Assembly (NCBI GenBank): GCA_029202385.1
Contig: CP119314.1
Span: 4,825,001-4,889,000, forward strand
DNA: 64,000 nucleotides
Direction: 5' to 3'
Source of the DNA: Candidatus Sphingomonas phytovorans
GTDB lineage: Bacteria > Pseudomonadota > Alphaproteobacteria > Sphingomonadales > Sphingomonadaceae
Shown: piece by piece, positions 15,834-54,078 of the stretch
How positions within the stretch are numbered: position 1 is the stretch's first letter
Layout: every line of letters begins with the position of its first letter
Notes under the pieces: generated by a model
The model's input: only the letters and a program-made list of their open reading frames with translations
The model's database searches: none
What the model was told of the DNA's origin: nothing
Made by a program: the position numbers and the translations under genes

Positions 15834-15902
15834 CCCAATAATTTAGGAGAATTGGACCCGTCCCGCCGCTTGTTCGACAGGGCGCGCTGCGCTAACGATA
15901 TC

Positions 15903-15918
15903 TGATAATGCCTCTCAA
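15903..15918. promoter_or_regulatory. Fur-like iron box before the PepSY/siderophore receptor operon
   Basis: TGATAATGCCTCTCAA lies 22-37 nt before the PepSY start. Its reverse complement TTGAGAGGCATTATCA matches, at 12 of 16 positions, the box before the PiuC gene (48810-48825), giving a shared TTG(A/C)GAG...TTATCA. Both target genes are iron-type families, supporting Fur or a similar iron regulator. Confidence 0.6.
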
Positions 15919-15939
15919 TATAGCTCGAGATGCTCGTCG

Positions 15940-17288: not shown

Positions 17289-17327
17289 ACTCCATGCAGG
17301 CGCCACGCGCCGATGAAAGGGATACCC

Positions 17328-19520
17328 GTGTCCAAGTCCATCTTCAGCTTCGTCTCGCGCCTCGCGCTTTCCGGCTCGGCGCTGGCGCTCGCCACGCCGG
17401 GCTGGGCACAGGAATCGGCGCCGTCCGACGCCGACATCATCGTCACCGCGCAGAAGGGCAACCAGACCGAGGTGAGGCGCGGCGGGCAGGTCGGCGTGCT
17501 CGGCGACAAGGCGGCCGAGGACGTGCCGTTCAGCATCACGAGCTACAACGCTGCGCTGATCCTCAACCAGCAGCCGCAGACATTGGGTCAGGTACTGGAG
17601 AATGATCCGTCGATCCGCACGACCTATGGCTTCGGCAACGCCGCCGAACAGTTCGTCATTCGCGGCTTCACCCTGGCCGGCGACGATGTCGGCTTCAACG
17701 GGCTCTACGGGCTGGCCCCGCGTCAGCTCGTCGCGCCTGAGCTGTATGATTCAGTGCAGGTGCTGAACGGCGCGAGCGCCTTCCTCAACGGCGCCGCCCC
17801 GGGCGGGACAGGTGTCGGCGGCAGCGTCAACCTCGTATCGAAACGCGCTGGCACCACGCCGCTGACCCGGGTGACGGCCAACTACAGCAGCGGGTCGCAT
17901 TTCGGCGGCAGCTTCGACGTGTCGCGCCGCTTCGGCGACGACGATGCCTTCGGCATTCGAATCAACGGCGCCTATCGGTCGGGCGACGTCGCGATCGACA
18001 ATGAATTCCGTCGTACGGCAGTGCTCGGCGCCGGCCTCGACTGGCACAGCGATCGCGTTCGGCTCTCGCTCGACCTTGCCTATCAGCGCGTGCAGATCCG
18101 CAATCTCAGGCCGAAGGTGACTGTGGGCGCGGCGATCCCCGCAGTGCCGGCCGCCGATCACAATTACGGCCAGGCTTTCTCCTACACCACGCTCCGCGAC
18201 ATCTTCGGTGCGGTGCGCGGCGAATATGACCTGTCCGACAACGCCATGCTCTATGCCGCGTTCGGCGCGCGCGACGGGTCGGAGCGGGGCATTTACGACG
18301 GCATCACCGTGACCAATGCGGTGACGGGCGACGCCAACGGCAACGCGCTGTTCGTGCCGCGAACCGACAATAACGAGACGGCGCAGGCCGGGATTCGCGT
18401 CAAGCTGGCGGCCGGCGGCGTCACCCAGGAATTCAACCTTGGCGGTTCGATGATCTGGCAGGTCAACCGCAACGCCTATGACTTCCTCTATGGCCCCGGC
18501 TTTGCCGGCTATGCGACCAATCTCTACAACACGCCCAGGGTCGCACTGCCCGGCTCGACTCTGGTCGGCGGCAATCTGGCCGATCCCTTCCCCGTCGGCC
18601 GCTCGAAGCTGGGCAGCATGTTCGCGTCGGATACGCTCGGTTTCTGGGACGACAGGATCCTGCTCACCGCCGGCCTCCGGCTGCAGACGATCGACACGCG
18701 TTCTTATGCCTATAACGCCGATCCGGCGAACGGGATCGCGGCGGGCGACCTGACGACGAAACTCAGGACCAGTGCCGTGACGCCGGTCGTCGGGCTGGTG
18801 ATCAAGCCGGTCACTGGTCTGTCGCTGTTCGCCAACCGGATCGAGGGCTTGCAACAGGGCGCCGTCGCAGGTGCCGGCAACATCAATGTGGGCCAGATCT
18901 TCCCGGCCTACGTATCGACTCAATATGAAATCGGCGGGAAGGTGGGCCTTGGCCGGTTCAACGCCTCGCTTGCCTTGTACCAGACCGAATTGCCGAGCGC
19001 GTACAGCGTGCCCACGCCGACACCGGCCAATCCGACGGCAACGACGTTCGGCCTGTTCGGCCTGCAGCGCAATCGCGGCATCGAGTTGAGCGTCGATGGC
19101 GAGATCACGCATGGACTTCGCGTTATCGCCGGTGGTTCGGTGAACCAGGCGAAGTTGCGCAAGACGCTGGGCGGCGCGAACGACGGCAACACCGCGGTCG
19201 GCGTCCCCGATTATCTCGCCAACGCGAATGTCGAATGGGATCTGGGCTTCCTGCCCGGCGCCACATTGACCGGCCGGGTCGTCAATACCGGCAAGCAGCA
19301 GGTCAATGCCGCGAACACGCTGGAGATTCCATCCTGGACCCGATTCGATCTCGGCGCGCGCTATGTCCTGCTGGTGGGCGGCAATCCGCTGACCCTGCGC
19401 GCCACCGTCGATAACGTCGCCAACAAGCGCTATTGGGCTTCCTCGTTCGACTCGTTCGGCACCTCGTTGCTGCAAGGCGCGCCGCGTACGGTCAAAGTAT
19501 CGGCTTCCATCGAGCTCTAG
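17328..19520 (+). CDS. TonB-dependent siderophore receptor
   Basis: A 730-aa outer-membrane receptor. A signal peptide (ending ATPGWAQ) precedes a TonB box-like ADIIVTAQKG, a plug with FVIRGFTLAGDDVGFNGLYG and VQVLNGASAFLNGAAPGG, and a 22-strand-type barrel; SFGTSLLQGAPRTVKV and SASIEL at the C-terminus are typical of TonB siderophore receptors. GTG 17328 has AAAGGGA 6 nt upstream and gives a clean signal peptide (VSKSIFSFVSRLALSGSALA); ATG 17313 is the in-frame alternative. It ends the operon that begins with the PepSY gene under a Fur-like box, so it probably imports a ferric siderophore, whose identity is unknown. Confidence 0.93.
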   Translation: MSKSIFSFVSRLALSGSALALATPGWAQESAPSDADIIVTAQKGNQTEVRRGGQVGVLGDKAAEDVPFSITSYNAALILNQQPQTLGQVLENDPSIRTTYGFGNAAEQFVIRGFTLAGDDVGFNGLYGLAPRQLVAPELYDSVQVLNGASAFLNGAAPGGTGVGGSVNLVSKRAGTTPLTRVTANYSSGSHFGGSFDVSRRFGDDDAFGIRINGAYRSGDVAIDNEFRRTAVLGAGLDWHSDRVRLSLDLAYQRVQIRNLRPKVTVGAAIPAVPAADHNYGQAFSYTTLRDIFGAVRGEYDLSDNAMLYAAFGARDGSERGIYDGITVTNAVTGDANGNALFVPRTDNNETAQAGIRVKLAAGGVTQEFNLGGSMIWQVNRNAYDFLYGPGFAGYATNLYNTPRVALPGSTLVGGNLADPFPVGRSKLGSMFASDTLGFWDDRILLTAGLRLQTIDTRSYAYNADPANGIAAGDLTTKLRTSAVTPVVGLVIKPVTGLSLFANRIEGLQQGAVAGAGNINVGQIFPAYVSTQYEIGGKVGLGRFNASLALYQTELPSAYSVPTPTPANPTATTFGLFGLQRNRGIELSVDGEITHGLRVIAGGSVNQAKLRKTLGGANDGNTAVGVPDYLANANVEWDLGFLPGATLTGRVVNTGKQQVNAANTLEIPSWTRFDLGARYVLLVGGNPLTLRATVDNVANKRYWASSFDSFGTSLLQGAPRTVKVSASIEL

Positions 19521-33338: not shown

Positions 33339-33611
33339 GTGGCGGCAGACAAGATGGACATCGACCAGTCGACGATCCTCGACAATGAGCATGAACAGCT
33401 CGTCGAGTTCACCGGCGAGGTCGATGGCGACGAATATGAATTCGCTGTCCAATATGCAGTGCTTGAGGCGCTGAGCGGTGACGCGCCGGATGATGATGCG
33501 GTCGACATGTTCAACCGCTTCAGCGACGTGATCGCTGACGCCGGCCTGGTCGCGCTTGCGCGCAACAGCGATCAGGCACTGATCGTGATCAGCGAGAACG
33601 ACTTGGAATAA
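33339..33611 (+). CDS. Small acidic protein, DUF1488-like
   Basis: A 90-aa protein, strongly acidic (many Asp and Glu; EFTGEVDGDEYEFAVQYAVL, DAPDDDAVDMFNRFSDVIAD), with a C-terminal helix-strand unit ending LIVISENDLE. The pattern (F/V-x-G-E-V-x-G core, then a central helix F-N-R-F, then a final strand and Asp) resembles DUF1488, a small domain of unknown function; I give this as a tentative match. Start is GTG 33339 with AGAGGGAA upstream; ATG 33354 is the alternative. It follows putA by 86 nt in the same direction but probably has its own message. Confidence 0.65.
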   Translation: MAADKMDIDQSTILDNEHEQLVEFTGEVDGDEYEFAVQYAVLEALSGDAPDDDAVDMFNRFSDVIADAGLVALARNSDQALIVISENDLE

Positions 33612-33895
33612 CGCGCCCGCCGCGTTATCTCCGGAACTGCCGGGCGCGCTCGACAGGGCGCGTCCCGGCTATGACATCCGACACGGCAACCCACGCGGCG
33701 ACAGACCGCCTGCGGCGATGGCGCGTGCCTGAGGGCACGCCCACAGGGACGGGCAAGGCCGCCCGGCTATGGCGGGTCAGTCCGATAGAGTCCGAAAATG
33801 AACTCCGCATTCTCTGCGCCCTCCGCGCGAATCCTCCTTTTTGCTGCAACCGCGCCAGTGAGGTGAATGTCGATCCGACCTAACTCGAATCGTCG

Positions 33896-47654: not shown

Positions 47655-48806
47655 ATGTCGATCCGAATGGCGAAGATTGATTTCCTCGTAATAGGTGGAG
47701 GGATTGCCGGGGCATCGGTTGCCGCGACGCTTGCCGACGAAGCAAGCGTGACGCTGCTCGAGGCCGAGGAGCAGCCCGGCTATCATTCGACCGGCCGGTC
47801 GGCCGCTCAATTCTCCGAAATCTATGGAAACGCCGCGATCAGGGCGCTGTCCCGGGCAAGCCGGTCCTTCCTGTTCGATCCGCCAAGGACCTTTACCGAC
47901 CAGCCACTGGTCAGGCCGCGCGGTACGCTGTTCCTCGCGTCGGAGGCGCAGCTCGATACGCTTGCCGCCTTCGCCGCGCTTCCCGATGTCGCCCCGGCCA
48001 CGCAGATGCTGACACCTGGGGAGATGAAGCTGATCTGCCCTTTGCTGCGCGACGACTATATCGCCGGTGGACTGCACGAGCCCTTGTCGACCGACCTCGA
48101 AGTCCATGAACTGCATCATGGGTATCTGCGGCAGTTCCGGCAGCGCGGCGGCATCCTGCGTACCGATGCGCGCGTGTCTGCGATCGCCCGGCGCGGGGAG
48201 GCGTGGCATGTCACCGCTGGCGGCGAGGAGTATGAGGCTGCCACATTGATCAATGCCGCCGGTGCCTGGGCTGACGAGATCGCCATCATGGCCGGGGTGC
48301 CGCTGATCGGGCTTCAAGCCCATCGGCGCACCGCAGCCCTGGTCGCCGTGCCCGCCGGCGTGGTCGCTGACGACTGGCCGTTGCTGATCGACATCGACGA
48401 GAACTTCTACGTCAAGCCGGACGCGGGCCTGCTGCTCGTGTCGCCCGCGGACGAGACACCTACCGAACCGTGCGACGTCCAGCCCGACGACCTCGACATC
48501 GCCATCGCGGTCCACCGCGCCGAGGAGGCGATGACGCTCGATGTGCGGAGCATCAGGCATAGCTGGGCCGGTCTCCGGAACTTCGTTCCCGATCGTACGC
48601 CGGTCGTCGGCTACGAACCCGGGGTGGAGGGGTTCTTCTGGCTGGCGGGACAGGGTGGCTATGGCATCCAGACCGCGCCGGCGCTGGCACGTACCGCCGC
48701 CGCGCTCGCCTTGGGCCGGGATCTGCCGGACGATCTCGCCGCGTTCGGCGTGACGACCGCAGCGATCGCCCCGTCCCGGCTGCGCCCGCCGGCCAGCGCT
48801 GATTGA
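47655..48806 (+). CDS. FAD-dependent amine/D-amino-acid oxidoreductase (DadA-like)
   Basis: A 383-aa flavoprotein of the DAO family (glycine oxidase, sarcosine oxidase and DadA relatives). The N-terminus FLVIGGGIAGASVAATLADE is the GxGxxG FAD site, GYHSTGRSAAQFSEIYG follows, ATLINAAGAWADEIA is the second FAD motif, and FFWLAGQGGYGIQTAP is the C-terminal flavin segment. Substrate not fixed. ATG 47655 was chosen; TTG 47649 and ATG 47670 are in frame and possible. Separated from the hut genes by the XRE-cupin regulator, it may oxidise an amino acid-derived amine. Confidence 0.88.
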   Translation: MSIRMAKIDFLVIGGGIAGASVAATLADEASVTLLEAEEQPGYHSTGRSAAQFSEIYGNAAIRALSRASRSFLFDPPRTFTDQPLVRPRGTLFLASEAQLDTLAAFAALPDVAPATQMLTPGEMKLICPLLRDDYIAGGLHEPLSTDLEVHELHHGYLRQFRQRGGILRTDARVSAIARRGEAWHVTAGGEEYEAATLINAAGAWADEIAIMAGVPLIGLQAHRRTAALVAVPAGVVADDWPLLIDIDENFYVKPDAGLLLVSPADETPTEPCDVQPDDLDIAIAVHRAEEAMTLDVRSIRHSWAGLRNFVPDRTPVVGYEPGVEGFFWLAGQGGYGIQTAPALARTAAALALGRDLPDDLAAFGVTTAAIAPSRLRPPASAD

Positions 48807-48809
48807 CAT

Positions 48810-48825
48810 TGATAACCGCTCGCAA
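48810..48825. promoter_or_regulatory. Fur-like iron box before the PiuC gene
   Basis: TGATAACCGCTCGCAA (rc TTGCGAGCGGTTATCA) lies 70-85 nt before the PiuC start and just after the FAD oxidoreductase stop. It shares 12 of 16 positions with the box at 15903-15918 before the PepSY/siderophore operon. Confidence 0.6.
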
Positions 48826-48894
48826 TAGCGGGTCTTTCGACCGAAAGGGCCCGAGCTTGCGCGCAACCACACCCATCCGACGCGGCCCCGCGCG

Positions 48895-49578
48895 ATGCTG
48901 ATCGCCATTCCCGACCTGCTCTCGCCCGATCAGCTTGCCGGAATGCGCGGGATCATCGATGCGGCTGCCTGGGTCGACGGCAATGTGACGTCGGGGCATC
49001 AGTCGGCCCTTGCCAAGCGCAACGAACAACTGCCCGAGGATTCGGACGCCGCGCGCCGTGCCGGGGCGATGGTGCTCGATGCGCTCGCCGCGTCGCCCCT
49101 GTTCGTCGCGGCTGCCCTGCCGCTCAAGGTCTTCCCGCCCCTGTTCAATCGCTACGCCGGGGGGCAGGCCTTCGATACGCATGTCGACAATGCGATCCGT
49201 ATCAGGCGCGGCAGCGATTTCCGTATCCGCAGCGATCTTTCGGCAACGCTCTTCCTCGCCGATCCGGGGAGCTATGACGGCGGCGAACTAGTGATCGAGG
49301 GGCAGTTCGGCGAGCAGAAGGTCAAGCTGCCCGCCGGCCATATGGTGCTCTATCCTGCCTCGAGCCGCCATCATGTGACGCCGGTCACCCGGGGCACCCG
49401 CGTGGCGTCCTTCTTCTGGATTCAGTCGATGGTGCGCGACGAGAGCGCACGCAATATCCTGTTCGATCTGGATTCCGCGGTGCAGGCGGTCGCGGGCGAT
49501 CGGGGGCAGGACGACGCCGCGGTGGTACAGTTGACGGGAGTCTATCACAATCTGCTGCGCCGCTGGGCCGACGCCTGA
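48895..49578 (+). CDS. PKHD-type Fe(II)/2-oxoglutarate hydroxylase (PiuC/YbiX family)
   Basis: A 227-aa dioxygenase of the PiuC family, often found beside siderophore receptors. The iron ligands are His and Asp in [14 protein letters not shown] and His in [11 protein letters not shown], and the 2-oxoglutarate Arg lies in [29 protein letters not shown] and [18 protein letters not shown] are family signatures. It has a Fur-like box upstream, as for iron-starvation genes. It converges with the ApbE gene (10 nt apart), so both ends of this block are iron-type. Confidence 0.93.
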
Positions 49579-49588
49579 GGGCGGGGCC

Positions 49589-50578
49589 TTAGCCGAGCAT
49601 CTCGTCCAGCGCAGGCGACAGGATTTCCCGATATCCGGAGGCGTCCCGCACGATGAAACGTGCGGCAAGACCCTCGCGGACGGCCAATTCCAGGCCCTCT
49701 TCCGGCCCGAGTACCGTCAATGCCGTCGCCCACGCATCGGCCAGCATGCAGCTCGGGTTCAGTACGGTGACCGCGGCGACGCCGTTGGCCACGGGGCGGC
49801 GGGTCCGCGGGTCGATGCTATGGGCGTAGCGTCGCCCGCCTGTTTCGAAGAAACGCCGGTAATCGCCCGAGGTGGCAACGGCGAGATCATGCAATGCCAC
49901 GCGCAAGGGGGCGATTCTTGCACCGGGCGGTGCTTCAAGCTCGACCCACCACGGTTCGCCGTCCGGCTTTACGCCTGCTCCTACCAGCTCGCCGCCAATC
50001 TCCGCGAGGAAATCGCCGGCGCCGAGGCCGTGCAGCGCGCGGGCCAGCGCGTCGACCCCGAACCCCTTGGCGATACCCGACAGGTCGAGCCGCACATCGG
50101 CGGTTCGCCGCGCGCGCGTTTCGGAAATCTCCAGCTTCCGCCAGCCGACCGATGCGGCCATCACCTCGGTTTCCGCCGGAAGGTCGCCCCGCCCCGCCGG
50201 CCCGAAACCCCACAGGTCGACCAGCGCACCCGCTGTCGGATCAAAGGCTCCGCTACTGGCGCGGGCGACGGCCAGCCCCGCGTCGAGCACTCGGAGGAGA
50301 TCGGCCGGAAGCTCCTGCCACAGGCCGGGCGGCGCGCGGTTGAACCGCGACAGGTCGGAATCCGGTTCCCAGTTGCTCATCTCGGCGATCACGCCGTCCA
50401 GCGCGCGCCTGATTGCCGAGCGTATGTCACTGCCCGGTCGCGAGGAGACGACCCGCGCCGACCAGCTCGTCCCCATCGTGTCGCCGCCGAACAGGGTGAT
50501 CGTCGCCCCGGCGTCGCGTCGCCGGAACGACTCGGGCGAGACGTGCAACGGCACCGCGACCCGAGGCGCCCCTGTCAT
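49589..50578 (-). CDS. apbE: ApbE-type FAD:protein FMN transferase
   Basis: A 329-aa flavin transferase. It moves FMN from FAD onto a Thr or Ser of the D-G-x-S/T-G-A-T motif. GTSWSARVVSSRP, FDPTAGALVDLWGFGP, VRLDLSGIAKGFGVDALA, AEIGGELVGAG, HSIDPRTRRPVANGV and the DAWATALTVLG end are all present. Unlike most ApbE proteins it shows no signal peptide or lipobox at its N-terminus (MTGAPRVAVPLHVSPESF), which would place it in the cytoplasm; that is odd if its target is exported. Its start overlaps the DUF4198 stop (TGATG). It is the last gene of the operon. Confidence 0.93.
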   Translation of the reverse strand: MTGAPRVAVPLHVSPESFRRRDAGATITLFGGDTMGTSWSARVVSSRPGSDIRSAIRRALDGVIAEMSNWEPDSDLSRFNRAPPGLWQELPADLLRVLDAGLAVARASSGAFDPTAGALVDLWGFGPAGRGDLPAETEVMAASVGWRKLEISETRARRTADVRLDLSGIAKGFGVDALARALHGLGAGDFLAEIGGELVGAGVKPDGEPWWVELEAPPGARIAPLRVALHDLAVATSGDYRRFFETGGRRYAHSIDPRTRRPVANGVAAVTVLNPSCMLADAWATALTVLGPEEGLELAVREGLAARFIVRDASGYREILSPALDEMLG

Positions 50579-51390
50579 CAGGGTTGCAGCACCTCAAGCA
50601 CGGTAGTGTAGCTCATCCGCTTCTCGCCGTCCGGGATGACGGTGCTCGGCGCGGTGGTCGATGCTGACATCCAGTACATGCCGGCGCCCGGCCAGGTGAT
50701 CGCGACCTGCCCCTGGGCGTCGGTCTTCAGCGCGATCTCGTTGACCGAGGTGCGATAACGGCTGCCGCCGGGGATGACGGTGACGGCGATATTCGCGGCC
50801 GGCTTGCCGTCGGCGATCAGCTTGAATGTCGCCGGCTCGCCGGCCACCAGGTCGTTGGGATGAGTGACGGGGACCAGCTCGAGGCCCTGGCCGGTCGGCT
50901 TGAGCACGGTGTCGGTCGGCGCGCCTGATGTGACGAACACCTCGTTGCGGCTGATCGATTCGCCCAGCTTCACGTCGGTCGCGCCGGCCGGCACGGCGGT
51001 GGCCAGCTTGTCGGCGGTGGTGCCGCGCGGCAGGCGCTGCTCTACGCCGTTGACCTTGAAGCTGCCCATGATCCCGGCATTCTGGATCACGATCTTGTAG
51101 GTGCCCTTCTGGGTCATGTGCAGGTCGAAATTCGCCCGGTACTGGCCGATGTTCATATGCTCGACCTTGCCCGGCGTGCCGTCGGGCTGGACCACCGCTG
51201 GCTCGGCGCGCAGCGGCTGGTGGTCGGGGAAGAACAGGTCGTTCGACGCGGCGGCGTCGAACGTGATCCAGTCATCGTCACCCGATACGATCGTGGTCGA
51301 AGGCAGCATCCAGAGGCGATGCGCCTGCAGCGGCGCGGCGATCGCGGCCGTGCAGACGGCGGCGGCAAGCAGTTTGTGGAGGGTCTTCAT
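50578..51390 (-). CDS. DUF4198 secreted protein
   Basis: A 270-aa protein with signal peptide MKTLHKLLAAAVCTAAIAAP (cut near LQA/HRL) and the DUF4198 features: the start HRLWMLPSTTIVSGDDDW, DLFFPDHQPLRAEP, and a C-terminal Ig-like domain ending YTTVLEVLQ. The N-terminal His after cleavage resembles the His-first metal sites of such proteins. Related NikM/DUF4198 proteins go with metal uptake; here iron is the context. It sits between DUF2271 and ApbE in the minus-strand operon. Function unknown. Confidence 0.9.
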   Translation of the reverse strand: MKTLHKLLAAAVCTAAIAAPLQAHRLWMLPSTTIVSGDDDWITFDAAASNDLFFPDHQPLRAEPAVVQPDGTPGKVEHMNIGQYRANFDLHMTQKGTYKIVIQNAGIMGSFKVNGVEQRLPRGTTADKLATAVPAGATDVKLGESISRNEVFVTSGAPTDTVLKPTGQGLELVPVTHPNDLVAGEPATFKLIADGKPAANIAVTVIPGGSRYRTSVNEIALKTDAQGQVAITWPGAGMYWMSASTTAPSTVIPDGEKRMSYTTVLEVLQP

Positions 51391-51417
51391 GGGCGGATCC
51401 TTCCGGAGCGATTATGA

Positions 51418-51936
51418 TCAGGGCTTGAAGGTGACGGAGACGGCGCCGAGCTCGGTCTTGCCGGTGGCGCGGGCTGTCTGGCCCGGCTTGGCCGGCCAGG
51501 CGAAGGGAAGGCGCAGGACCTCGCGCCCGCCGGTCTCGCGCGCGGCTTCGACGACCAGGGTGTATTCGCCCGGCTTGAGCCCGAGCTTGGCGGCGTTGAA
51601 GCTCAGCGCCTGGACGCCGGGCGCGCGCGTCGCGCCCGATGTGCCGTCGGCGACGAAGGCGTTGGTACGGCCGGAGGCGCGCCACCAGGACCGCACCTCG
51701 TTCAGCCATTTGCGGCCTTCGTTCTTCGCCTTTTTCACGTCGTACCAGACCGATAATGTCCTGGCCGGGGCGCCATTGCCCTCGACGAAGATCGCCACAT
51801 AGGGGCGGTGATATTCGGCGACCGACAGGCGCGGCACGGTGACGACGACGTCGATCGTCTGGGCGAAGGCGGGCGTGCCCGCGGCCAGCCCGGCGACGGG
51901 AATGCCGGTGAGGATCAGGCGATGGCTGAGCTGCAT
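51418..51936 (-). CDS. DUF2271 secreted protein with covalent flavinylation motif
   Basis: A 172-aa protein with a signal peptide (MQLSHRLILTGIPVAGLAAG, cut after AFA/AFAQ) and DUF2271 sequence (PRLSVAEYHRPYVAIFVEG, SVWYDVKKAKNEGRKWLNEV, YTLVVEAARETGGREVLRLP). Residues 97-103 are D-G-T-S-G-A-T, the exact consensus used by ApbE to attach FMN through the Thr (here Thr103, codon 51630-51628). With ApbE in the same operon, this protein is the probable flavinylated partner, working in the periplasm. The flanking VADGTSGATRAPGVQ region would be exposed. Located between PepSY and DUF4198 genes. Confidence 0.93.
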   Translation of the reverse strand: MQLSHRLILTGIPVAGLAAGTPAFAQTIDVVVTVPRLSVAEYHRPYVAIFVEGNGAPARTLSVWYDVKKAKNEGRKWLNEVRSWWRASGRTNAFVADGTSGATRAPGVQALSFNAAKLGLKPGEYTLVVEAARETGGREVLRLPFAWPAKPGQTARATGKTELGAVSVTFKP

Positions 51937-51955
51937 TGACGGAACTCCCGATGGA

Positions 51956-52591
51956 TCAGTGGATGAAGAAGATGGCGAGGCCAGCCGGAATGGCGAGGCC
52001 GAGGGCGACGAGCGGCCAGGTGATCGGGCGCTTGGCCGCGTGGAGCTGGAGCAGGACCAGCCCGGTCAGTGCGAAGACGAGGCAGGCAAAGGCGAAGATG
52101 TCGATGAACCATTTCCACGCGGCGCCCGAGTTGCGCCCCTTGTGAAGGTCGTTGAGATACGAGATCCAGCCACGATCGGTGAATTCCGACGTCACCGCGC
52201 CTGATGCCCGGTTGATCGAAACCCAGCCGTCGCCGCCGGGCCGGGGCAGCGCCAGATAGATTTCGTCGGCTGACCATTCGGCGTCGCCGCGCGCGCTGGC
52301 GGGGAAATGCGCCTCGACCCAAGTCGCCACCTCGGGCGGGAGGGGTTTCTTGACGTCGGGGCCCTCGACCGGGGCGACGGCGCGCAGCAGCGGCGCTGGC
52401 AGCGCCGCGGCCTTTGCGACGACCGTCGGTTTGGCTTCGATATCGGCCGCGTGGTTCAGCGTGAATCCGGTGACGGCGAACAGCAGGAGCCCGACAAGGC
52501 TGACCGCTGAGCTTATCCAGTGCCAGGTGTGAAGCTGCTTGAGCCAGAAGGTCTTGCGCCGTGGCTTCTGCCGCGCGGCCTGGATAGTCAT
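51956..52591 (-). CDS. PepSY-type small membrane protein with conserved histidines
   Basis: A 211-aa inner-membrane protein. Helix 1 is about residues 18-40 (WHWISSAVSLVGLLLFAVTG), followed by a periplasmic PepSY domain (TWVEAHFPASARGDAEWSAD, GDGWVSINRASGAVTSEF), helix 2 about 150-173 and helix 3 about 185-205. Histidines in TWHWIS, LNHAAD and NDLHKGR at membrane interfaces are candidate haem b ligands. ATG 52591 was chosen because the frame open to 52777 covers the operator region. It is the first gene of the operon; the likely role is to carry electrons across the membrane to the flavinylated DUF2271 protein. Confidence 0.87.
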   Translation of the reverse strand: MTIQAARQKPRRKTFWLKQLHTWHWISSAVSLVGLLLFAVTGFTLNHAADIEAKPTVVAKAAALPAPLLRAVAPVEGPDVKKPLPPEVATWVEAHFPASARGDAEWSADEIYLALPRPGGDGWVSINRASGAVTSEFTDRGWISYLNDLHKGRNSGAAWKWFIDIFAFACLVFALTGLVLLQLHAAKRPITWPLVALGLAIPAGLAIFFIH

Positions 52592-52613: not shown

Positions 52614-52657
52614 GAATTGAGAGTGAGTCGCGATAACGCAAACGACTCGCAGTTGCA
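52614..52657. promoter_or_regulatory. Putative iron-type operator region for the PepSY-DUF2271-DUF4198-ApbE operon
   Basis: Within the 185-nt gap, TTGAGAG (52617-52623) repeats the start of the Fur-like motif seen at 15903 (rc) and 48810 (rc), and GAGTCG-N12-CGACTC (52625-52648) forms an inverted repeat around CGATAACGCAA. It is 23 nt upstream of the PepSY start. The match to the other boxes is only partial. Confidence 0.4.
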
Positions 52658-52776
52658 AGACTTTGGCTGGGCCTGTGCCGTGGCGGCGAAGGCCGACGTA
52701 CTGATAACAAGGCTTGCCCCGATCATGCGCAAGGCGGCATAGGCGCCCCCTTTGTGTGCTGAATCGGAGGTCGGCA

Positions 52777-54078
52777 ATGGAACATGTTGCCGCAGGCACC
52801 GCGATCGGCCTGGATTTCGGGACCACCAACAGCGTGCTCGCGCGGGCGGGTGCTGATGCGGGCGCGACGCTGGTCGAGTTCGATGGCCCCGAGGAACGCG
52901 GCGCGGTGTTCCGGTCGGCGCTGTGCTTCTGGCATGACGATGATGTGCGGGGCGGCCTGGCGGTCGAGGCGGGGCCCTGGGCTATCGCCGAATATCTGGA
53001 TTACCCGCAGGACACGCGGTTCATCCAGTCGTTCAAGTCGGTCGCGGCCAGCGCGGTGTTCGAACATGCCTCGGTGTTCGAGAAGCGCTACCGCTTCGAA
53101 GAGCTTGGGCGGCTGTTCCTCCAAAAGCTCGCGGCGCATGCCGGGGGCGGCCTGGATGTCAGGCCCCAGCGAGTCATCGTCGGGCGTCCGGTAGAATATG
53201 CCGGCGCGCGGCCCGATGTCGCGCTCGCCCGGCAACGCTATGACGCGATGTTCGACGGTTTCGGCGCCGAGATCCACTATGTCTATGAACCGCTCGGTGC
53301 GGCGTTCAGCCATGCGACGCGGCTTGAGGAACCGGCCACGATCCTCGTCGCCGACTTTGGCGGCGGCACCAGCGACTTCTCCGTGGTGCGCGTGGCGGAG
53401 CCGGGGGCGGCCAAGCGCTGCGTGCCGCTCGGCCATGCCGGCATCGGCATCGCGGGCGATCGTTTCGACCAGCGCATCGTCGACCGGCTGGTTCTGCCGA
53501 TGCTCGGCAAGGGCGGCAGCTATCGTTCGTTCGACAAGGTGCTCGATATCCCCGGCGGCTATTTCAATGATTTCGCTGACTGGTCGCGGCTCGCGCTGAT
53601 GCGCAATCGCCGCACGCTTGAGGAGCTGAACCGGCTTCAGCGCTCGGCGATCGATCCAGCGGCGATCGGGCGGATGATCGCGCTGATCGAGAACGAGCTT
53701 GGTTTCCCCCTATATGACGCGGTCGGTCGTCTGAAGCGGAGCCTGTCCACCGACGACCACGCTCATTTCCATTTTGCGGGCGCCGGGCTCGAGGTCGAGG
53801 CGGACGTCGCGCGGTCCGAGTTCGAAGCCTGGATCGCCGAGGATCTGCGCCGCATCGACGCGACCGTCGATCGTGCGCTGTCCGCGGCCGGGCTTGGCGC
53901 GGACGGCATCGACCGGGTATTCCTGACCGGCGGTTCGTCGCTGATCCCCGCCGTCCGCGCGCTGTTCTCGCGGCGCTTCGGCGATGCGGCGATCAGCTCG
54001 GGCGACGAGCTGACCTCGATCGCCCATGGCCTCGCCCTGATCGGGCAGCAGGACGATATCGCCGCCTGGTCGGCCTGA
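52777..54078 (+). CDS. YegD-like Hsp70-family protein
   Basis: A 433-aa Hsp70 homologue that lacks the usual substrate-binding domain, like E. coli YegD. Nucleotide motifs: phosphate-1 IGLDFGTTNSVLA at the N-terminus, phosphate-2 LVADFGGGTSDFSVV, and adenosine VFLTGGSSLIPAVR near the C-terminus. It could be an ATP-dependent actin-fold chaperone-like protein; clients unknown. Start is ATG 52777, after GGAGG; the frame from 52714 was rejected. Divergent from the iron-type operon, with no other link. Confidence 0.92.
   Translation: MEHVAAGTAIGLDFGTTNSVLARAGADAGATLVEFDGPEERGAVFRSALCFWHDDDVRGGLAVEAGPWAIAEYLDYPQDTRFIQSFKSVAASAVFEHASVFEKRYRFEELGRLFLQKLAAHAGGGLDVRPQRVIVGRPVEYAGARPDVALARQRYDAMFDGFGAEIHYVYEPLGAAFSHATRLEEPATILVADFGGGTSDFSVVRVAEPGAAKRCVPLGHAGIGIAGDRFDQRIVDRLVLPMLGKGGSYRSFDKVLDIPGGYFNDFADWSRLALMRNRRTLEELNRLQRSAIDPAAIGRMIALIENELGFPLYDAVGRLKRSLSTDDHAHFHFAGAGLEVEADVARSEFEAWIAEDLRRIDATVDRALSAAGLGADGIDRVFLTGGSSLIPAVRALFSRRFGDAAISSGDELTSIAHGLALIGQQDDIAAWSA

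Follow-up and report, generated by a model that had tools for sequence, protein, structure and literature searches.

A PepSY/DUF2271 flavin operon of a Sphingomonas-like bacterium and its recurrent genomic tie to the Fiu/PiuC iron-catecholate uptake pair

Introduction

PepSY-like flavinylation clusters were described by Meheust 2021 as gene clusters that combine a PF03929 or PF16357 protein with ApbE, FMN_bind, DUF2271 or DUF3570 (PMC8238504). In that work 2,833 PepSY/DUF2271 clusters were reported, covalent flavin was shown on a DUF2271 homologue and iron reduction was proposed as the function. PF16357-type PepSY, DUF2271 carrying the motif [S/T]GA[S/T], DUF4198 and ApbE occur there together, as they do in the locus described here, and the text available to us holds no mention of PiuC. 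The Caulobacter operon CC3059-CC3063 (CCNA_03155-03159) has the same four-gene order, is iron-responsive, is bound and repressed by Fur, and matters for fitness in EDTA (PMC3751524, PMC12004947). The ferri-siderophore reductases FoxB and HiuB share the PepSY family, and their conserved histidines have been proposed or shown to bind haem (PMC11334425, PMC13001220). The pairs CciT-CciO, Fiu-YbiX and PiuA-PiuC are known from iron uptake (PMC12004943, PMC12004947); PepSY TM proteins rank second among the neighbours of cciT, in fewer than 25% of genomes (PMC12004943), and Fiu/PiuA-type uptake also imports the antibiotic cefiderocol (PMC12004947).

The operon analyzed here is a further member of the PepSY/DUF2271 class, an idea in print since 2021. 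What is new is its recurrent genomic tie to the Fiu/PiuC iron-catechol uptake pair, together with a flavin-attaching ApbE that seemingly remains in the cytosol, whereas its target is exported.

Results

Gene content and layout of the operon

The window is the full 64-kb stretch analyzed, with coordinates counted from its first letter, and comes from a Sphingomonas-like bacterium. As the initial annotation had proposed, it holds four closely spaced minus-strand genes, in the order PepSY, DUF2271, DUF4198 and ApbE. The PepSY_TM_like_2 membrane protein (51956-52591, 211 amino acids from the ATG at 52591) matches PF16357 with 257.4 bits and additionally PF03929 in part with 44.8 bits, both scores being taken on a longer TTG-started reading frame that reaches 52777. 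It is followed after 19 bp by the DUF2271 protein (51418-51936; PF10029, 140.7 bits), a probable ApbE target, and after a further 27 bp by the secreted DUF4198 protein (50578-51390; PF10670, 187.5 bits), which overlaps by one base with the FMN transferase ApbE (49589-50578, 329 amino acids; PF02424, 270.5 bits). The PF16357, DUF2271 and ApbE matches place the locus among the described clusters.

In Caulobacter a fifth gene, annotated as a sulfite reductase flavoprotein, follows ApbE, whereas the window has none: no match to a diflavin reductase was found in six frames of the 64 kb. Such a reductase is encoded at 31 of 48 phylum loci.

All four genes are present in 18 of 19 congener loci fetched, the 19th (L040) stopping short of ApbE, and DUF2271 is interrupted by a stop in one congener locus (G009, L047). 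The complete set was likewise found in 75 of 80 named loci, the remaining five lying on short fragments that end early; the four families thus do co-occur across the genomes surveyed, as had been anticipated. The genome encodes a single ApbE, a single DUF2271 and no FMN_bind protein.

Flavin site and export of DUF2271

The sequence D97-G-T-S-G-A-T103 (51628-51648, minus strand) is an exact ApbE target motif, with SGAT at residues 100-103, and the earlier assignment of Thr103 as the predicted FMN site agrees with the alignments. Position 103 is threonine in 80 of 81 aligned rows, the remaining row being a gap, and in the phylum set it is threonine in 48 of 49 sequences and serine in one (window included in both). 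At least one target gene of a flavinylation cluster is expected to encode a signal peptide or a lipidation site; the N-terminus of DUF2271, judged by eye, shows a hydrophobic stretch followed by AFA-Q, indicating a Sec-type signal peptide. Tat export was considered, since a protein loaded and folded in the cytosol could leave by that route, and was rejected: a loose twin-basic pattern occurs in 3 of 81 N-termini, with no clear Tat motif by eye.

ApbE without a signal peptide

A periplasmic lipoprotein ApbE carries an N-terminal secretion signal, but the ApbE of the window has no signal peptide and, by eye, no signal-like N-terminal stretch. A start-site error concealing a leader is ruled out in the window by an in-frame stop six codons upstream of the ATG. 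The match to NF007774 (188 bits) lies under its cut-off of 498. The signal peptide is also missing from ApbE in nearly all relatives examined. A hydrophobic run of at least 10 residues, used as leader test, gave results that are not clean: among ApbE sequences it picked out 8 of the 74 named, 3 of the 28 phylum and none of the 5 class proteins, and the window ApbE itself just reaches a run of 10, its first domain strand being counted in. Inspection by eye finds ApbE signal peptides only in L174 and L234, with L165 and L226 ambiguous. As controls, the test was positive for 68 of 81 DUF2271, 73 of 79 DUF4198 and 0 of 45 PiuC sequences; an earlier hydropathy score was discarded, its classes overlapping (PiuC up to 1.99, DUF2271 down to 1.19).

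PepSY and DUF4198 models

In PepSY, His24, His150 and His184 are invariant (81/81 aligned), with His211 conserved in 80 and His47 in 79 of the 81. These histidines and the family suggest that PepSY carries haem; in the FoxB type of reductase, two haems are bound by pairs of histidines. The AF2 model (pTM 0.62) has three long helices, and no haem protein, FoxB included, is among the listed fold matches of a model of this confidence. In contrast to FoxB and HiuB, the protein is of the shorter PF16357 type and is accompanied by a separate flavin carrier.

The initial annotation treated DUF4198 simply as a secreted protein. Secretion stands, whereas the model now points to a metal-binding type, having the fold of metal-binding DUF4198/Zcp proteins (matches to Zcp and 9gcb). 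His24 follows directly after LQA and is the predicted mature N-terminus (cleavage site by eye), and a histidine stands at this position in 71 of 79 named DUF4198 proteins. The solved DUF4198 (9GCB, PMC12537917) binds Ni best, with a Kd of 18 nM. At the offset of its second ligand, His18 of IsDUF4198, the window protein holds Trp41, not histidine; His57 and His177, each conserved in 78 of 79 sequences, could serve as alternative ligands. The Zcp structures (PDB entries 9mhi-9mhn) contain Zn, Cu or Co, and the title of 9mhk gives H29, H31 and H142 as mutated residues, so the Zcp site may not use the N-terminus.

Fiu/PiuC neighborhood

Next to the operon lies a PiuC/CciO/YbiX-type Fe(II)/2OG dioxygenase gene (48895-49578, plus strand; PF18331, PF13640), which scores 392.2 bits against the NF003973 cut-off of 336, passing the threshold of the PiuC/CciO/YbiX equivalog and so belonging to the same dioxygenase family as CciO, YbiX and PiuC. 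It is convergent with ApbE and therefore not on the operon's transcript here, and the fiu gene of this genome is ~243 kb away. Unlike in CciT-CciO, the neighbor is a flavin operon with DUF2271, DUF4198 and ApbE, and the genome's own receptor gene is distant.

The link of the operon to PiuC, noted initially, proved broader than one genome could show. Of 48 loci from a phylum sample that have PepSY and DUF2271, 21 carry a Fiu/PiuC pair, with receptors of the Fiu family, within the 9-kb flanks retrieved; these loci come from 7 of 18 families and have the pair on the same strand in 10 cases and on the opposite strand in 11. PiuC accompanies 45 of 75 four-gene named loci, and in several congeners gene ends overlap with the pair. 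PiuC is not in the fetched stretch of 27 of the 48 phylum loci, nor in that of 6 of 9 class genomes having both PepSY and DUF2271.

Fur-like boxes

The Fur-like box previously noted at PiuC is present (48803-48829, minus strand, 22.5 bits; 13.3 on the other strand) and is the second-best site of the window. The best, which had gone unnamed, precedes PepSY itself (52630-52656, minus strand, 31.2 bits). The third-best has no iron gene alongside. The region upstream of the distant fiu scores 26.1 bits, and the genome encodes FeoB. Scored as motif sites, these boxes suggest regulation by a Fur-type repressor.

Discussion

The locus is probably a Fur-type-regulated operon for a PepSY/DUF2271 flavin-dependent iron reductase acting together with the catecholate-uptake pair Fiu/PiuC. 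Iron shortage would, judging from the motifs, derepress PepSY, PiuC and the distant fiu through the box ahead of each. ApbE would attach FMN to Thr103 of DUF2271, as the conserved motif and the published chemistry of a homologue suggest. PepSY would carry electrons across the inner membrane via haem from a donor encoded off-locus, and FMN-bearing DUF2271 would reduce Fe(III) delivered, to judge from the synteny, by a Fiu-type receptor and probably complexed by a catecholate. DUF4198, whose fold is known from the model, may bind a periplasmic metal. Fe2+ would enter by FeoB, and, in line with the literature, PiuC may act in the cytoplasm, either on the ligand or on the iron. An iron role for a membrane-to-flavin path, proposed in the initial annotation and already published in 2021, is still the best reading, with the qualification that a diflavin reductase donor is absent from the locus and ApbE is leaderless.

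Conservation of the four-gene set with its motif and the position of the two best Fur-like sites before PepSY and PiuC favor this reading. So do the recurrence of the Fiu/PiuC pair, the single ApbE and DUF2271 in a genome lacking FMN_bind proteins, the DUF4198 fold, the presence of FeoB, and the published flavinylation of a DUF2271 homologue and iron, Fur and EDTA findings on the Caulobacter operon. Against it stand the convergent PiuC, the distance of fiu, the missing diflavin reductase, the PepSY model without a listed haem match, an ApbE unlike those of usual periplasmic loading, and the third Fur-like site without an iron gene. The absence of PiuC from the fetched stretch of 27 of 48 phylum loci also counts against it, and would fit an unlikely but credible alternative in which the same electron path serves general ferric reduction or other siderophores (hydroxamates, citrate, EDTA-type chelates), Fiu/PiuC being nearby merely through a shared Fur regulon. 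That alternative gains from Caulobacter, where cciT/cciO lie elsewhere and the operon nevertheless matters in EDTA, and from other receptor types next to PepSY in L222, L225 and L228 (best matches CirA/CfrA/IreA-like, under cut-off); the spread of the pair over 7 of 18 families, its two orientations and the overlapping gene ends in several congeners argue against mere co-regulation.

The nickel preference of the solved DUF4198, in which the counterpart of Trp41 is His18, is a further point against the iron reading. Together with Zn, Cu or Co in Zcp and the copper sensitivity of cciT/cciO mutants (PMC12004943), it would suit a task in nickel, zinc or copper handling, with DUF4198 binding the metal and the flavin chain acting on its redox state or ligand. 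This is improbable in view of the Fur-like boxes and of the Caulobacter operon, for which responses to iron and Fur have been published. Alteromonas PepSY proteins have been interpreted as siderophore permeases rather than electron carriers (PMC7190382), which is very improbable here: the model has three long helices only, the histidines are invariant, a flavin carrier is always alongside PepSY, and many phylum loci add a diflavin reductase.

Since ApbE lacks a signal peptide, flavin loading may not occur outside the cytosol. We tentatively suggest, from sequence features and with some doubt, that leaderless ApbE puts FMN on DUF2271 in the cytosol and that the flavin-bearing precursor is then exported by Sec, or that loading takes place during translocation. 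In the assay of Meheust 2021 the ApbE signal peptide had to be removed (PMC8238504), whereas the window ApbE has none. Klebsiella likewise has a cytosolic ApbE without signal peptide, but its target is a soluble fumarate reductase (review, PMC12052999), in contrast to the target here, which carries an export signal. No description of a cytosolic-loading route to periplasmic covalent flavin was found in the available text of the literature searched. If true, cytosolic loading would remove the need for FAD export. If the tie to Fiu/PiuC is functional, it would make ferric catecholates the substrate class of a reductase family that lacks a proven substrate in the literature available to us, and would supply a reduction step for Fiu/PiuA-type uptake.

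Results

The four-gene minus-strand set proposed in the initial annotation was found complete, with each gene over its Pfam cut-off. In transcription order the genes encode PepSY_TM_like_2 (51956-52591), DUF2271 (51418-51936), DUF4198 (50578-51390), and ApbE (49589-50578). Searches for ApbE, DUF2271, and FMN_bind in the genome, a single contig of 5.45 Mb, gave one ApbE, one DUF2271, and no FMN_bind protein. The ApbE target motif assigned to DUF2271 is likewise present as DGTSGAT, ending in the predicted FMN site Thr103, and a Sec-type signal is recognizable by eye at the N terminus of the protein. Comparison of the window with the named loci, a set biased to close kin because the best 80 of 575 relatives were taken, shows Thr at residue 103 in 80 of the 81 rows, the exception being a gap. 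In the phylum sample (398 genomes, 65 DUF2271 carriers, 68 matches at E ≤1e-10) the residue is Thr in 48/49 and Ser in 1/49. The Ser or Thr target is also kept in all 16 PepSY+DUF2271 phylum loci whose fetched stretch contains no ApbE match >150 bits (L221, L224, L230, L236, L239-L242, L245, L247, L249, L253, L256, L258, L262, and L267); their ApbE may be encoded elsewhere in the genome or be too divergent for the model used. The nearest named locus among the matches listed, from Sphingomonas sp. ERG5, has a PepSY identity of 80%, with records very near our genome possibly left out.

Among 81 PepSY sequences (window plus best 80 of 575) His24, His150, and His184 are invariant, and His211 and His47 are kept in 80/81 and 79/81. 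The AF2 model (mean pLDDT 83.6, pTM 0.62) has three long helices with one domain between helices 1 and 2. Their positions along the helices would put His24 and His184 at one membrane face and the remaining three, His47, His150, and His211, at the opposite face, an arrangement compatible with two haems. Neither sequence searches nor the fold matches listed gave a closely related solved structure. DUF4198 is predicted to have a metal-binding fold, and its His57 is kept in 78/79 sequences overall (best 80 of 575 relatives). The N-terminal His is replaced by Ala or Pro in L110, L111, L113, L120, L125, L127, L146, and L156, which provide natural variants for testing the need for His1. A further DUF4198 match in our genome, at G000:C1:584788-585000, is partial (36 bits); a few kb separate it from a TonB receptor match (580013-581806).

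In the window ApbE, an in-frame stop lies six codons upstream of the ATG, and MGTSW is preceded by 34 residues devoid of signal features. Among 102 non-fused ApbEs of PepSY+DUF2271 loci (74 named, from the best 80 of 575, and 28 phylum) an automatic leader test flagged 11, and by eye signal peptides are seen only in L174 and L234, with L165 and L226 ambiguous. A short R-I-A-I-P-type segment lies N-terminal to the ApbE domain in 60 of these 74 named loci. Natural ApbE-DUF2271 fusions occur in L265, L266, L268, L283, and L289. Unlike the leaderless stand-alone ApbE, the two fusions examined of these five (L266 and L283, which passed the motif filter) have leader-like N termini.

Training on 119 upstream regions of the named loci (79 PepSY and 40 Fiu; best 80 of 575), without PiuC promoters, gave a 27-base motif (GcAATTGCGAATCGTTCGCGtTA...), of which 113/119 contain a site. 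The window and own fiu regions stood outside the training, but these 3 regions were among the 122 whose k-mers were counted to obtain the seed. We infer that the motif belongs to Fur. A scan of the entire window on both strands placed the best site before PepSY (52630-52656, 31.2 bits) and the second-best before PiuC (48803-48829, 22.5 bits), and the own fiu upstream region scores 26.1 bits. The third site (33586-33612, 18.2 bits) is flanked by genes for a PutA-type proline dehydrogenase and an M19 peptidase and adjoins no iron gene. The fourth (15896-15922, 15.8 bits) lies before a second PepSY_TM gene of the window (PF03929, 15940-17097, plus strand), which is followed by a gene for a TonB-dependent siderophore receptor (17313-19520, plus strand, TIGR01783 over cut-off). 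An Hsp70-like gene (weak PF00012 match, 52714-54078) is divergent from the operon PepSY and shares the region with its Fur-like box.

The PiuC gene (48895-49578, plus strand), encoding a CciO/YbiX-type dioxygenase, adjoins the operon convergently, and fiu, the gene of the iron-catechol receptor, lies ~243 kb distant and is 72% identical to that of L102. The least biased test of the link to both is the phylum sample, for which 66 loci, all but G000 (our genome) and G010, were fetched with up to about 9 kb per side, besides eight class-sample loci. A PF16357-type PepSY lies beside DUF2271 in 48/66. PiuC is within the fetched stretch in 21 of these 48, each time with a Fiu-type receptor >400 bits. 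It is on the same strand in 10 and the opposite strand in 11, and recurrence in 7/18 families and on both strands indicates that no single fixed gene arrangement accounts for the link. The PiuC neighbor with a Fur-like box, taken initially as support for an iron role, is real in the window. PiuC was not found in the fetched stretch of the other 27/48 loci. PiuC was found in 0/18 fetched stretches of DUF2271 phylum loci lacking a detected PF16357-type PepSY, several of which instead encode a long protein with a weak reductase-model match and a PepSY-like start. All four genes are present in 75/80 named loci (best 80 of 575), with PiuC in 45/75, and the 69 with ≥4 kb past ApbE include 43 with PiuC, 44 with a Fiu-type receptor, and 42 with both. 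Within this named set PiuC is on the operon strand in L131, L169, and L180, the last a Xanthomonadaceae bin in which fiu, piuC, and the four operon genes form a single run.

PiuC is in the fetched stretch of 10/19 congener loci and, by coordinates, ≤11 kb away in 12/20 DUF2271-bearing congeners (own included). It lies upstream of PepSY on the same strand in four congeners, overlapping it by 4 bases in L035, L043, and L047; in L040 its end adjoins PepSY, and the listed frame has an earlier start. For receptors adjoining PiuC in nine congener loci the Fiu model is the best match, two being over its cut-off. PiuC is present in 20/20 congeners with DUF2271 and 12/17 without, a contrast of little weight because four of the five PiuC-less congeners are <90% complete. 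In the class sample (n = 240) PKHD_C occurs in 8/9 genomes with DUF2271 and PF16357 over cut-off versus 29/231 others (Fisher P 1.3e-6, shared ancestry ignored), and within the fetched stretch in 3/9 (our genome, G152, and G264). A second TonB receptor lies between PiuC and PepSY in L222, L225, and L228, with CirA/CfrA/IreA-like best matches, all below cut-off.

A diflavin reductase (flavodoxin plus NAD-binding) is encoded at 31/48 PepSY+DUF2271 phylum loci and at 12/75 named loci with ApbE (best 80 of 575), and record titles assign none of the 12 to a sphingomonad; in the eight cases checked by Pfam it is the gene immediately after ApbE. None is present in the window. L264, a phylum locus from the window's own family, does match, though less strongly (302 bits), so not every locus of the family lacks the reductase.

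Discussion

The window locus belongs to a known kind of system, and the idea behind it is sound and already in print. Meheust et al. 2021 (PMC8238504) describe 3,220 PepSY-like flavinylation clusters, with DUF2271 in 2,833 and DUF4198 in 1,500, and propose iron reduction as their role; they show one DUF2271 protein to be flavinylated by its own ApbE, and Thr replacement abolishes its flavinylation. According to PMC3751524, Caulobacter CC3059-CC3063 has the same gene order, is iron- and fur-responsive, and has a promoter bound by Fur, but its fifth gene, CC3063, by annotation the same kind as the diflavin reductase, has no counterpart in the window. Other reports describe mutants of that operon as unfit in EDTA (PMC12004947), an iron response of DUF2271 and DUF4198 genes in Alteromonas (PMC7190382), and PepSY TM proteins as second among cciT neighbors, in <25% of genomes (PMC12004943). 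No literature combining PiuC and ApbE was found. The available text of Meheust et al. 2021 (PMC8238504) contains no comment on leaderless ApbEs; a cluster was accepted there if any single target gene had a signal, so leaderless ApbEs could be among those data. For cytosolic ApbEs, the targets named in the available part of a review (PMC12052999) are non-exported. The value of the locus lies in three testable additions: the tie to Fiu and PiuC, an ApbE that lacks a leader although its target carries an export signal, and the predicted metal-binding fold of DUF4198.
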